DNA of 57,883 bases from Bacteroidota bacterium (GTDB lineage: Bacteria > Bacteroidota > Bacteroidia > Cytophagales > Cyclobacteriaceae): NCBI GenBank assembly GCA_027593175.1, contig JAQCJI010000007.1, positions 1 to 57,883 of the forward strand, read 5' to 3'. The notes under the pieces are model-generated. The model had not been told where the DNA came from. It made no database searches and worked only from the letters and a program-made list of their open reading frames with translations. Made by a program: the position numbers and the translations under genes. Shown in pieces: positions 3,439-57,883 of the stretch; position 1 is the stretch's first letter, and each line of letters starts with the position of its first letter.

Positions 3439-4212
3439 TTATAAATTATTGGCTTTTTTTATAAATAACTCCAATGCACCAGTCATACTTGGGGCATTTG
3501 GCATGGGCGCCTCGATGTCCAAGATAAGTCCCATGTCACGAACTGCTTGCGCAGTAGTAGGTCCAAAAGCAGCTATCCGTGTTTTCCCTTGAACAAAATC
3601 TGGAAAATTCTGACGCAAAGATTTGATTCCTGATGGACTAAAAAAGGCCAAAATATCGTATTTTACATCTGCCAAATCAGATAAGTCTGCTGCTACGGTA
3701 TGGTAAATGATCGCCTCAGTAAGGGCTATCCCTTGTTTCTCCATGTAGCCAGGAATATCTTCTTTTCGGATATCTGAACAAGGGAAAAGGTATTTTTCAT
3801 TTTTATGCTTTTTGAAGTATTCAAACAGGTCCTCTGCGATCTTGAGGCCTACAAAAAGTTTGCGCTTACGAATCACAATGTACTTCTGAAGGTAGTTAGC
3901 TGTCTGGTCTGAAATGCAGAAATACTTCATTTCGGCAGGCATTTCAATTTTAAAATCCTTGCAGATTGCAAAAAAATGATCGATCGCATTGCGGCTAGTG
4001 AATATGATAGCCGTGTGCTTCAAAATATCTATTTTTTGCTTTCTGAATTCCTTCGGAGGAACTAATTCCACGTTAATAAATTGCCTAAAATCGATCTTCA
4101 ACTTATACTTTTCTGCCAACAGCAAGTAAGGAGAATTTGCTTCAGTTGGTTTAGGTTGAGAAACCAATATGCTTTTTACTAGGGAATAGCGGTCTTTTGT
4201 AGCTAGACTCAT
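3439..4212 (-). CDS. hemD: Uroporphyrinogen-III synthase
   Basis: 257 aa from the ATG at 4212; a TTG eight codons further upstream is possible but unlikely. The protein has the two-lobed HemD pattern: SILVSQPKP, a central IIFTSRNAIDHFF, and the C-terminal AFFSPSGIKSL and RIAAFGPTTAQAV motifs. HemD closes hydroxymethylbilane into uroporphyrinogen III in haem synthesis. It follows a DUF4271 membrane-protein gene by 28 bp on the same strand, so the two are probably one transcript. Confidence 0.9.
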   Translation of the reverse strand: MSLATKDRYSLVKSILVSQPKPTEANSPYLLLAEKYKLKIDFRQFINVELVPPKEFRKQKIDILKHTAIIFTSRNAIDHFFAICKDFKIEMPAEMKYFCISDQTANYLQKYIVIRKRKLFVGLKIAEDLFEYFKKHKNEKYLFPCSDIRKEDIPGYMEKQGIALTEAIIYHTVAADLSDLADVKYDILAFFSPSGIKSLRQNFPDFVQGKTRIAAFGPTTAQAVRDMGLILDIEAPMPNAPSMTGALELFIKKANNL

Positions 4213-4240
4213 ACTGGGAGTTCCGTTTACGTTCAATACA

Positions 4241-5356
4241 TCACTGGATTAGAACCAAAATCCATTTGATCAAAACCAAAAATGGTACTATTTCAGCAAG
4301 GCAAAGGTAAGTAAATAAATGGTATTTTTTAAAACTCAAACGATTCATCATGATTAAGAAGAGTCCAAATACCCCAAATAGGTATATCCAAAAGACCCCC
4401 TTCATGAGTTGAGTAAATACTAATTTTAATACAGAAAAGTCATTAATTACAAAAAAGGTAGTTGCTACTAAAACAAGCGTGAAGCTAAAGGTGATTAATC
4501 GAAGCAAGTAAAAAAAGTGGGCAAACTCAGACTTGCCTAAGTCAAAAAGATACGCCATGAATTTGATCACAGAGAACTTTAATATGGTCAGCATCAAAAG
4601 TAGAAAGGATGCAATTCCCCATAAAAACAAAAGCGAAAAAGCAGTTAAGCCGCCCCAATCTTCAATCCAATCAGGTCTAAAAATGATGATTCCTGTAACC
4701 AAACTCTGAGCCAGTATCATGGAAACCAAAAACAAAAAATATAAAATATCAAAAGAAAATACTTTTTGAAGACCCCCACTTTCAGAAAAATCTTCAGCTT
4801 TAATCACCGATAAGGGTTGCAGTAAAACCCCCAACAAATACGGGTAAATTCGCCTGTAAACAGCTATAAAGGCCAAAATAATGAAAAGCGAACCCACAAT
4901 GAAATCCTTCACGGGCTGGACTACCAGGCGTTTTTCAAGTCCGAAAAATTGGTCCTCCAAACTTGCTAGCTTTTTCTCTTTTTGATTTCTAGCCACCTTT
5001 GTAATAGTCAAATCAAAGTCTCCTAGCCTAATCTTGTCACTGATAACAGTCACTAGCAGACTATCCTTTCCAAATTCTTTCTTAAATAAATCAGTAGGTA
5101 TTAAAAACGTGGTATCGTTTTGAATCAAACCCCACAGCTTCCCATCTACAAATACCGTAGAATTCCTAGGTACCTCAAATTTAAAATAAGATTGGGGAAA
5201 AGAATTTACAGCTAGTTTAACTTGCTTTTGACCTATTGAGCCTACTAAAGACTGCTCAGTAGAACTACTCCACTCCCCTTCGTAATTTTCCAATACCTGT
5301 GCATGTCCCCATCGGGAGACAAAAAAAAGAATGAAAATAAGTGCTATTCTACTCAT
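4241..5356 (-). CDS. DUF4271 domain membrane protein
   Basis: 371 aa from the ATG at 5356. A signal peptide (MSRIALIFILFFVSRWGHAQ) precedes a soluble part of about 120 residues, then a series of hydrophobic helices from about residue 155 to the end. The multi-helix C-terminal half resembles the DUF4271 family of Bacteroidota; its function is unknown. An upstream TTG at 5371 is possible, but a -7-like box (TACCTTTG on the minus strand, 5376-5369) overlaps it, which favours the ATG and a very short leader. The pairing with hemD suggests shared expression, not a proven haem role. Confidence 0.8.
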   Translation of the reverse strand: MSRIALIFILFFVSRWGHAQVLENYEGEWSSSTEQSLVGSIGQKQVKLAVNSFPQSYFKFEVPRNSTVFVDGKLWGLIQNDTTFLIPTDLFKKEFGKDSLLVTVISDKIRLGDFDLTITKVARNQKEKKLASLEDQFFGLEKRLVVQPVKDFIVGSLFIILAFIAVYRRIYPYLLGVLLQPLSVIKAEDFSESGGLQKVFSFDILYFLFLVSMILAQSLVTGIIIFRPDWIEDWGGLTAFSLLFLWGIASFLLLMLTILKFSVIKFMAYLFDLGKSEFAHFFYLLRLITFSFTLVLVATTFFVINDFSVLKLVFTQLMKGVFWIYLFGVFGLFLIMMNRLSFKKYHLFTYLCLAEIVPFLVLIKWILVLIQ

Positions 5357-55455: not shown

Positions 55456-57249
55456 ATGTACAACATAGAAGACCTCAGAATCAGACTTTTATCTGAATTG
55501 AAGGAGATTGCTGAGGAAATTGGAGTGAAAAATTCCAAATCTTTGAAAAAAGATGAACTGGTGTATGCCATTCTTGACCAACAAGCCCTCATACCCGAAC
55601 AAGCACTCCCAAAGAAAAAATCATCGGTGGTAGAGACCGGTTCCTTGGTGGAAGAAACAAGTGAAGTTTTTACCCCTATTTTCACACCAAATCCCGAAGA
55701 ACCAACAGGTTTCAAATCTAAATTCAGAAGACAAAACGTCACTGAAATTCCATCCCTTAGCCCCTCCACTTCAGCTGAAGAAAATCAAACAGCTCCGAGA
55801 GAGGAACGAGCGCCAAAACCATTTGTAAAACTTGCCAAAGAATTTACCCCCAGAAATGAGCGAAGAGCTTCCCAAGGTGATTCTTCCGAGGAGCCCAAAC
55901 CGTTTAAACCGCGCAAGCATTCGTTTGATGAGGATCCATTAATTGTAGCTGGACACGAAACGGGGATAGAAGTAGCCCAACAGCAGGCTGACCAAGAGGA
56001 GGAAAATCCTTACCGAGTAGAGTCAGAACTTCCAAGACGCAAAAATTTCAATTCGCCAGAAGAAGCCCCTATTCCTGCAGTGGAAACAATACCAGGTAAT
56101 GTCCGCAAAAAACCATTCATCAGTCCAAGAGAGTTTGATGGAGTAATTGAAAACGAAGGAGTATTGGAAATCGTCCAAGATGGCTATGCTTTTTTGCGCT
56201 CCTTGGACTACAATTACCTAGCCTCTCCCGATGATATATACGTTTCTCCAAGTCAAATCAAACACTTCGGTTTGAAAACTGGTGACCATATCAAGGGTTC
56301 TATTCGCCCACCCAAGGAAGGAGAAAAATACTTTGCACTCCTCAAAATCACAACGGTAAATGGAAAAACCACAGACGAAATTAGAGACCGAGTACCATTT
56401 GAATACTTAACACCTCTTTTTCCAGAGGAACGCTTAAACTTATCTACTAAAGTGGATGGCTATTCTACCCGTATCCTAGACTTGTTTGCTCCTATTGGAA
56501 AGGGACAGCGCGGGATGATTGTAGCACAACCGAAAACAGGTAAGACAGTACTTTTGCAGCAAATTGCAAACGCGATTACTCAAAACCATCCTGAGGTACA
56601 CCTCATGATCTTATTGATTGATGAGCGCCCAGAAGAAGTGACCGACATGGCACGATCTGTCAATGCAGAAGTCATCTCTTCTACTTTTGATGAGCAAGCC
56701 GAACGCCATGTAAAAGTAGCCAACATCGTACTTGAAAAAGCAAAACGAATGGTAGAAGTCGGTCACGATGTTGTGATCCTCTTGGATTCCATCACCCGAT
56801 TGGCAAGAGCACACAATACCGTGGTACCTAGCTCAGGCAAAATCCTCTCTGGTGGGGTGGATGCCAATGCCCTACACAAGCCTAAGCGCTTCTTTGGTGC
56901 GGCACGAAATGTAGAAAATGGCGGTTCCTTGACCATCATCGCAACTGCCTTGGTGGAAACTGGTTCAAAAATGGACGAAGTAATCTTTGAAGAATTCAAA
57001 GGCACGGGCAACATGGAATTGGCTTTGGATCGTAAACTTTCCAACAGAAGAATTTATCCTGCAATTGATGTACTCAGCTCAGGAACTCGTCGAGAGGACC
57101 TGTTGATGGATAAAGAAGAAATGCAACGCGTCTGGATTTTACGTAAACTGATGAGCGACATGACCTCCCAAGAGTCCATGGAATTCCTCTTGCAAAGAAT
57201 GAAAGGTACGCGAGACAATGCGGAATTTTTGATTAGCATGAATAGCTAA
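55456..57249 (+). CDS. rho: Transcription termination factor Rho
   Basis: 597 aa. An N-terminal SAP-like Rho_N helix pair ([41 protein letters not shown]) is followed by a long disordered, charged insert (about residues 45-230), the RNA-binding CSD ([30 protein letters not shown]) and a hexameric ATPase with Walker [11 protein letters not shown] near residue 358, [17 protein letters not shown], and [15 protein letters not shown]. The insert makes it longer than the roughly 420-aa E. coli protein, as is usual in Bacteroidota. It ends at a strong terminator. Confidence 0.95.
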
Positions 57250-57272
57250 TTCCTTTCAAGTGTTGACTCACT

Positions 57273-57306
57273 AAAAAGGGGGCTTCTGTTGAAGCCCCCT
57301 TTTTTT
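57273..57306 (+). terminator. Intrinsic terminator after rho
   Basis: A perfect stem with core GGGGGCTTC (57278-57286) and GAAGCCCCC (57291-57299), TGTT loop, flanked by A and T tracts. It lies 24 bp after the rho stop. Confidence 0.9.
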
Positions 57307-57607
57307 AGGTAGTATAAATATATGCCATTAAGCTGCTTAGAGCTTTAGTAGTCTTCTTTCTTCCGGAGATTTTTTAGTTCCTTTACTCCAAGGAAGAAAG
57401 AAGTACTCGTTCCTATTAAATTTAGTATACTCAATCAGGCAAACTAAAAGTAGCCCCTTCCAATTCAATCGCAAATACCGAGATTAGCACTGTTCCCACG
57501 ATTTTAAGCTATTTTTTTCTTAGGGCAGCCCTCTCTTCCTGAGAAATAAATATCCGTACCGGATGAAAGTAATAGCAGTAAAATATATCAACCTTATTTC
57601 CCTATAC
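57307..57607. other. Gene-free stretch with an imperfect long hairpin
   Basis: About 300 bp with no credible ORF. It contains a long inverted repeat at 57347-57407: CTTCTTTCTTCC (57353-57364) pairs perfectly with GGAAGAAAGAAG (57392-57403), inner GGAG (57365-57368) pairs with CTCC (57386-57389), and outer AGTA pairs with TACT. It is not followed by a T-run. No promoter consensus is evident near it. The function is unknown; an untranslated RNA is possible. Confidence 0.4.
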
Positions 57608-57636
57608 AAAAAAAACAGCCAATTGGCTGTTTTTTT
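57608..57636. terminator. Palindromic terminator downstream of the tRNA-like RNA
   Basis: A perfect palindrome: seven A, CAGCCAA, TTGGCTG, seven T (57609-57636). Read on the minus strand it comes 4 nt after the tRNA-like discriminator base and ends in a long T-run, so it can end that transcript. It would also work on the plus strand. Confidence 0.8.
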
Positions 57637-57640
57637 CATG

Positions 57641-57778
57641 CTGTAGGGGAAGGATTCGAACCTCCACGCGGCAGTTAGGCGTGAGCTTTGAAACACGCTT
57701 TATCCAGTTCCGATCCTAAGGACCGGAATCCCCACCCCCGAGATAGGAGGGCTTGTCTGCCAATTTCAACACCCTACA
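57641..57778 (-). tRNA. tRNA-like RNA with leucine-type D arm and a very long variable region (identity uncertain)
   Basis: On the minus strand a 137-nt tRNA-like body runs from 57778 to 57642, with discriminator G at 57641. The acceptor is a perfect 7-bp stem TGTAGGG/CCCTACA. After TG comes a D arm with TTG/CAA stem and loop AAATTGGCAGA, typical of tRNA-Leu. One G later is a 5-bp stem CCCTC/GGGGG (one U-G pair) with a 7-nt loop CTATCTC; the U33 position is correct, giving anticodon AUC, which is not a leucine anticodon. The T arm is GGAGG-TTCGAAT-CCTTC. Between anticodon and T arms lie about 69 nt, versus 12-20 in normal tRNA-Leu, including a 9-bp hairpin and a GCGTG/CACGC pair. CCA is not encoded. 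A terminator follows. It could be a degenerate tRNA, or a functional tRNA-like RNA. Confidence 0.5.
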
Positions 57779-57883
57779 AGGTAGATTCAAAGTATATTTT
57801 AGCTTTTTCTAGCAATTGTAACAATGGCAAAAGCAAATATAAAAAAAAAGGTTTTAAATTAAAATTATTTTAATGTTTTATTA

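Follow-up and report, generated by a model that had tools for sequence, protein, structure and literature searches.

The window analysed here, a stretch of DNA of 57,883 nucleotides, carries on its minus strand a 137-nt tRNA-like RNA of a family that is widespread among the Bacteroidia and also occurs in several phages. The RNA gene was found in 169 of the 241 genomes sampled from the host's order, often in several copies, and also phage-borne. Our preferred explanation, to which we give slightly less than an even chance, is that the RNA is a non-decoding "pseudo-tRNA" regulator, processed as a tRNA, with its output set by an Lrp/AsnC factor that is encoded divergently in many relatives. If this is true, a regulator was made by removing a tRNA from translation. 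Through the link to Lrp, this question could be put to a direct test in environmental genera that grow in culture (Dyadobacter, Chitinophaga, and Algoriphagus).

ARAGORN called no tRNA at the element in the window, nor did it call the RNA in the other stretches searched. An Rfam search of 56500–57883 (E ≤ 10), a kind of check that the earlier note on this DNA had asked for, gave no match to tRNA (RF00005) or tmRNA (RF00023), and the RNA family had no Rfam match in any stretch searched. Because the RNA went undetected by both tools in these stretches, annotation based on tRNA searches likely overlooks it. None of the titles and abstract openings surveyed, a set outside which subscription papers and preprints fell, described the family. 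In one of the searched stretches (L151, 633–700, plus strand) a Flavo-1 RNA (RF01705) scored 40.7 bits, slightly below its cut-off of 42.

The RNA in the window, its fold and its covariation

The RNA (positions 1 to 72) lies at 57642–57778 on the minus strand, from which its fold was read and to which all of the following features belong. The covariance model R1, which was built from 47 sequences, matched 57639–57778 with 149.4 bits. G73 and C74, read from the sequence, are at 57641 and 57640. The 5' strand of the acceptor stem (57772–57778) pairs perfectly over 7 bp with the 3' strand (57642–57648). The D arm (57753–57769) has 3 bp and the 11-nt loop AAATTGGCAGA, which contains GG, and the T arm (57649–57665) has 5 bp and the loop TTCGAAT; both assignments come from the sequence and the unit census described below. 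Between them the anticodon-like arm (57735–57751) has 5 bp and the 7-nt loop CUAUCUC, with A34 in place of the G34 found in most relatives. This is the same set of canonical tRNA arms that the earlier note had described.

The variable region of 69 nt, placed at 57666–57734, forms a branched arm in the family model, and the 9-bp hairpin and the GCGUG/CACGC pairing that had been reported for it were both located. The 9-bp hairpin, V2 (57708–57728), is a lineage-variable insert that many relatives lack. The second hairpin, V3 (GCGTG...CACGC, 57679–57698), has two basal pairs that covary, and is flanked by the internal-loop strands GATAAA (57699–57704; an AYAAA-like strand in 285 of 288 units) and CTAAC (57674–57678; CYAAS in 276 of 288). 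In the window copy, one of the four positions of the variable-arm stem shared by the family is unpaired (GGGG vs CCGC).

A predicted Bacteroidota-type promoter box, TATATTTG, is found at 57834–57841, 55 nt upstream of the RNA, and the palindromic terminator-like hairpin with a T run that had been noticed behind the RNA was read at 57608–57636. Upstream of the RNA 105 nt remain before the contig end, and the gene toward which the RNA reads is rho (55456–57249, plus strand). By eye, the segment 57500–57600 resembles the region past the terminator at locus L034 in which a long ORF, AsmA-like by eye, starts; in the window no AsmA-like gene is left there and rho comes next instead. The genome itself, which is 83.5% complete, has one copy of the RNA.

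Folding of the window copy as a single sequence was no better than chance (z −1.55; 14 of 200 shuffles folded equally well). In an alignment of 65 distinct order-level sequences, 99.5% of the 1690 cells of a 26-pair model, comprising the cloverleaf and the branched variable arm, were paired, and this fell to 54–64% when the partners were slid. A test for compensatory changes in relatives had been called for; in these 65 sequences 11 pairs had changed on both sides, compared with 6.0 in shuffles, of which 0 of 500 reached as high. The class search supplied a second set of 25 distinct sequences, which includes a few members of the same order; here 98.8% of cells were paired and 15 pairs had changed on both sides. 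Both alignments were fitted to the covariance model and lean toward it. Homologues with broken stems, or no homologues at all, were what the earlier note had said would count against a retained RNA. What we found was an intact 7-of-7 acceptor in 285 of the 289 collected units, and the class-wide conservation with compensatory changes upheld its view that the RNA is retained and not decaying.

Beyond the tRNA core the family has the 4-bp variable-arm stem, an internal loop whose strands, AYAAA and CYAAS, occurred together in 273 of the 288 units, and one more hairpin. The data no more than hint at three additional pairs adjoining this loop, which formed completely in 23 of 59 distinct cases, against an average of 9.0 and a maximum of 19 in shuffles. 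The apical part comes in two kinds, one with the palindrome GAGCTC (97 of 288 units, with 3.4 expected by shuffling) and the other with the 11-mer GGGTTGACCAC (60 of 288); the two were mutually exclusive among the 288 units, and these motif counts are inflated by related copies. Two tmRNA loci contained no complement of the 11-mer, nor of two shorter segments taken from it. Across the units the variable region measured 39–134 nt (median 68) and the whole unit 107–202 nt.

Several copies depart from this plan. The palindrome TCCCGATAGCTATCGGGA was seen within the copies at L092 (1674–1807 and 1854–1987, minus strand), where it takes the place of parts of the D and anticodon arms, and in the variable arms of L021 and L022. 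Mini units consisting of only the acceptor and T arm were seen at L034 (~4140–4310, minus), L129 (6843–6949, plus), L121 (8875–8989, minus), L093 (1918–1975, minus), L094 (952–1010, plus), and L080 (1022–1083, plus).

Distribution, neighbours and viral copies

In blastn searches (E ≤ 0.001, with counts not pruned for matches resembling ordinary tRNAs), a 201-nt query detected the RNA in 70 of the 72 genomes from the same genus, frequently as a pair of copies ~0.5 kb apart, and a 127-nt sister copy detected it in 164 of 196 genomes of the same family, or 75 of 84 genera. With R1, 222 of 241 order genomes had a match at E ≤ 1e-3, and the 169 given above had a best match at E ≤ 1e-15 (counted by hand from the table). 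The stricter cut-off was adopted because the class search gave matches of 80–88 nt, with scores reaching 59 bits, that resemble ordinary type II tRNAs; weak matches were left uncounted in the order and class searches, which removed 53 of the 222 order genomes. Outside the order, a second covariance model, R2, matched 42 of ~283 Bacteroidia genomes in 16 families at E ≤ 1e-15 (hand count). In a phylum sample of 198 genomes whose class make-up was unstated, 23 were positive, and all of the matches listed came from the same class. Named hosts, represented by at least 119 stretches, some of which share a genome, include Algoriphagus, Cyclobacterium, Echinicola, Belliella, Dyadobacter, Chitinophaga, Emticicia, and Saprospiraceae. 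One type A copy had no plasmid match.

A Bacteroidota-type promoter box, TAnnTTTG, preceded the first unit in 167 of 205 cases (24 in shuffles), and the box plus an upstream TTG at the right distance in 88 of 205 (2.4 in shuffles). Units can also be arrayed, as at locus L112, with five tandem copies at a spacing of ~205 bp.

A small ORF divergent from the RNA was present at 17 of 22 loci from the class search, and a divergent Lrp/AsnC ORF at 6 of 23 larger loci. All 23 of the small divergent ORFs tested matched PF01037 and PF13404 (Lrp/AsnC), and these 23 proteins form one family, 50–75% identical to the L112 copy. Among the matches listed for the 119 named-genome stretches, the Lrp/AsnC gene was divergent in 47, some of them from genomes named Cyclobacteriaceae, the window's own family, with its start 122–309 bp upstream (median 176); 60 lacked this neighbour, and another 12 did not extend far enough for a decision. 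Without exception, the Lrp matches listed for these stretches (tblastn, 1e-15) were divergent to the RNA. No Lrp match lay beside the RNA in the genus and family loci L001–L096 (tblastn, 1e-15), and Lrp was not seen beside it in the window's genus. In the window's own genome the Lrp orthologue is on another contig, 72 nt from its start.

Other neighbours vary. SufB lies beyond Lrp at L116 and L117. In Algoriphagus the RNA adjoins the gene of an RluD-type pseudouridine synthase and an ORF of great length, AsmA-like by eye, which had no Pfam match, and at three other family loci it adjoins an FtsX/MacB gene. Lrp was kept in all six Cyclobacteriaceae genomes tested (L285–L289 and L291), and divergent from it in all six was a different small-RNA-like unit with GTTATATTTGGGTTTAT and a terminator. 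Because GTTATATTTGGGTTTAT resembles the trailer behind the rluD-side copies, it suggests that those copies may derive from an Lrp-side ancestor. Among nine RNA-negative genomes of the class, one (G515) had a full-scoring Lrp, four had weaker relatives, and four had none at 1e-30. The RNA paired with the Lrp mRNA no more than shuffled sequences did (71 loci).

A pattern scan of IMG/VR gave 23 viral contigs with the RNA, 22 of them as full matches (90.9–123.4 bits) and one cut; four query copies had no match among the named phages of INPHARED. Of ten proteins tested from the viral stretches, nine matched PHROGs, with portal protein, DNA polymerase, primase/helicase, and RNA ligase among them. 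ARAGORN, run on 18 of the 23 stretches, called tRNA genes in 10 and none in 8. In seven of the ten tRNA-bearing stretches, five of which are close relatives, the RNA sits 3–7 nt from its tRNA neighbours, with tRNA-Ser on one side; in the other three the nearest tRNA gene is 677 nt (L338), 91 nt (L350), or 622 nt (L359) away. With spacings of 3–7 nt in an array, only tRNA enzymes would be expected to generate the ends of the RNA.

Some phage stretches contain 17 tRNA-like units in total, with 12 distinct interiors, some nearly alike (L340, 5130–8251, minus; L341, 4332–5973, plus; L356, L357, and L358). They have a near-constant shell (AGTCAGGTGGCG... / ...ACAGGTTCGAATCCTGTCCTGACTA) around interiors of 28–98 nt, and look like tRNA shells with varied cargo.

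Identity elements and possible roles

In elongator tRNAs, U33 and a purine at position 37 flank a fixed anticodon. Position counts for the RNA were made on 288 distinct units. One of the 289 collected, at L040 (4209–4336, plus strand), was dropped: this recombinant-looking copy has five acceptor pairs and A73, and its 3' end, CCTGTTCCCGCTACA, resembles that of a tRNA-Met(cat) gene, as though recombined. Four short R1 matches were left out of both the census and the second model. The units were collected through D- and T-arm motifs, and counts for the D and T loops are biased by this; the same anticodon loop was present in 178 units collected without a loop pattern.

The results showed the following: The acceptor is nearly invariant, with U1-A72 in 287 of 288 units, G2-C71 in all 288, R4-Y69 in 286, and G73-C74 in all 287 units with flank sequence. 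A15 was found in 288 units and U48 in 272. U35 and C36 were present in 287, whereas position 34 was G in 268, A in 8, C in 6, and T in 6. Position 33 was T in 269, G in 18, and C in 1, and position 37 was T in 285, G in 3, and never A. Thus the anticodon AUC reported in the earlier note is correct for the window copy and is restricted to it and a few others; most copies have GUC. The RNA has the cloverleaf with a 7-bp acceptor, the T arm, and the 7-nt loop of an elongator tRNA, and it lacks that tRNA's constant U33, purine 37, and fixed anticodon. Because position 33 is not always U, all four bases occur at 34, and 37 is restricted to U and G, the RNA is predicted to be non-decoding.

By alignment to 33 tRNA sequences of a complete congener, the closest ordinary tRNA was Leu(gag), with a score of 15.9, followed by Leu(taa) with 12.3 and Ser(tga) with 8.9; this agrees with the D arm having been described as tRNA-Leu-like. 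The core features recognised by LeuRS (A15-U48, G18G19, and A20a, in numbering assigned here) are mostly kept. The determinant of bacterial Leu identity is A73, according to PMC9976931, and none of the 287 units has it. Because A73 is lost, the RNA is predicted not to be leucylated.

These observations can be joined to the divergent Lrp/AsnC gene in the regulator that we prefer. The RNA would be transcribed and then matured at both ends by tRNA enzymes; we infer that the transcript is probably cut by RNase P and the 3' tRNA nuclease and then given CCA. The near-invariant U1-A72, G2-C71, and G73-C74, together with the 3–7 nt spacing in the phage arrays, imply such recruitment by tRNA-processing enzymes, one of the possibilities raised in the earlier note. 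Its anticodon loop would keep the RNA out of decoding, and it would instead occupy a tRNA-binding protein, with LeuRS or SerRS as a first guess, made from the identity determinants only. The Lrp/AsnC factor would set the output of the RNA; because a tRNA-binding protein would be occupied without feeding decoding, Lrp could in this way tune amino-acid use. In its fullest form, which is more speculative and which we consider rather unlikely, this would be a wholly new two-gene control of amino acids, in which Lrp/AsnC is paired with a divergent pseudo-tRNA, matured just as a tRNA is but barred from decoding and leucylation, that occupies an aminoacyl-tRNA synthetase, and large Bacteroidota phages have captured the RNA in their tRNA arrays, keeping host translation under their own control.

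The strongest competitor, itself unlikely, is that the RNA is charged, most probably with serine, for which no contact to the anticodon is needed, and serves as an amino-acid donor in some process other than ordinary decoding. The bacterial Ser determinants listed in Table 1 of PMC9976931 are G73, C72, G2-C71, R4-Y69, C11-G24, a large variable region, and G30-C40. The RNA has G73, G2-C71, and the long variable arm, and has R4-Y69 in nearly all units; the same review adds that replacing A73 with G73 can convert Leu identity to Ser. Position 72 is A, but C72 seems dispensable in the genus, where three tRNA-Ser genes have A1-U72. Charging with serine is opposed by 11-24 and 30-40, which are U-A and U-G in most copies, and no enzyme that would use a charged donor RNA was recognised among the neighbour proteins tested by Pfam.

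It is improbable that the RNA serves as a decoy that diverts phage defence or toxins that cut tRNAs. Phages do carry it, inside or outside tRNA arrays; however, many chromosomal copies are Lrp-linked, the RNA is present in most of the order genomes searched, and the Pfam tests recognised no defence gene among the neighbour proteins.

We also assign a low probability to the idea that a 3' trailer is the regulatory element and that the tRNA-like part merely serves it as a shell for processing and stability. A trailer, GGTTATTTTGGGTTTATTGTTAATTGACTAAA, followed by a terminator, lies 3' of the RNA at L017, L058, L122, and others, nearly unchanged across genera of Cyclobacteriaceae; its core was matched in 72 of 289 three-prime flanks (≤3 mismatches), and trailer and terminator persist behind the mini units of L034, L121, and L129, whose tRNA-like part is reduced to the acceptor and the T arm. 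The Dyadobacter copies have another conserved trailer. But the GGTTATTTTGGGTTTATTGTTAATTGACTAAA-like trailer is missing from the window copy and from most of the last units compared from other lineages, although a few of these carry a conserved trailer of another kind, and conservation extends to the interior of the tRNA-like part.

That the RNA truly decodes, as a tRNA with an unusual anticodon (NUC, in the Asp or Glu box), is very improbable, and this "odd tRNA" proved the weakest of the three options that the earlier note had offered, the others being a regulator and an RNA recruited by processing enzymes. The 7-nt loop, the intact tertiary elements, the nearly constant U35 and C36, and the G73 and C38 shared with tRNA-Asp all fit decoding. 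They are outweighed by the four bases found at position 34, the non-U base at 33 in 19 of 288 units, and the absence of A at 37. Of the tRNA-Asp determinants (G73, G34, U35, C36, C38, and G10), the window copy departs in having A34 and U10. Ordinary tRNA-Asp genes are present in its own genome (two), in 6 of 6 other genomes searched, and in three phage stretches (L341, L349, and L359), which rules out the RNA as a substitute for a missing tRNA-Asp.

Finally, although ARAGORN did not find the RNA and its single fold was not significant, a decayed tRNA or a chance structure has almost no probability left, being ruled out by the class-wide conservation and the covariation in the sets of 65 and 25 sequences.

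Comparison with known systems

The closest known counterpart of the RNA is the tRNA-Leu (GAG) of the same genus, with which it shares the D-arm sequence, the type II layout, the T arm, A15, U48 (in the 272 units noted above), and G18G19. It differs from this tRNA in having G73 instead of A73, an acceptor with U1-A72 and G2-C71, an anticodon loop that is mostly C[U/G]NUC[U/G]C, and its own branched variable region of 39–134 nt.

With tmRNA (SsrA) the RNA has in common tRNA-like ends within a longer RNA, and the two occur together in the phage array L359, a stretch with 21 tRNA genes, a tmRNA call at 543–885 on the minus strand (tag GEYAIAA), and the RNA at 4075–4228. In contrast to tmRNA, the RNA has a complete anticodon arm and units of 107–202 nt, and no consistent tmRNA-like reading frame was seen by eye in the variable arms of several copies. 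All 12 of 12 genomes have a tmRNA of their own elsewhere and RF00023 did not match at the element, and identity with tmRNA is rejected.

YrlA and other bacterial Y RNAs are non-coding RNAs that mimic the D and T arms of tRNA and have Ro60 as their partner. Unlike them, the RNA has a full acceptor stem and anticodon arm; Ro60 (TROVE, PF05731) was found in 0 of 71 genomes of the genus, and a Y RNA is likewise rejected. The 3' external-transcribed-spacer sRNAs of tRNA operons are similar to the RNA in the conserved trailer that lies behind some of its copies, but the window copy has no such trailer.

In allo-tRNAs and tRNA-Sec the acceptor-T composition is 8/4, 9/3, or 8/5, whereas the RNA has a 7/5 stack in the 65-sequence model, a 5-bp anticodon stem, and a much larger variable arm. 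The type II structure, the long variable arm, and G73 are shared with it by both, according to PMC7609411. We conclude that the RNA would act like a tRNA mimic, yet lacks a defining feature of every known family tested.
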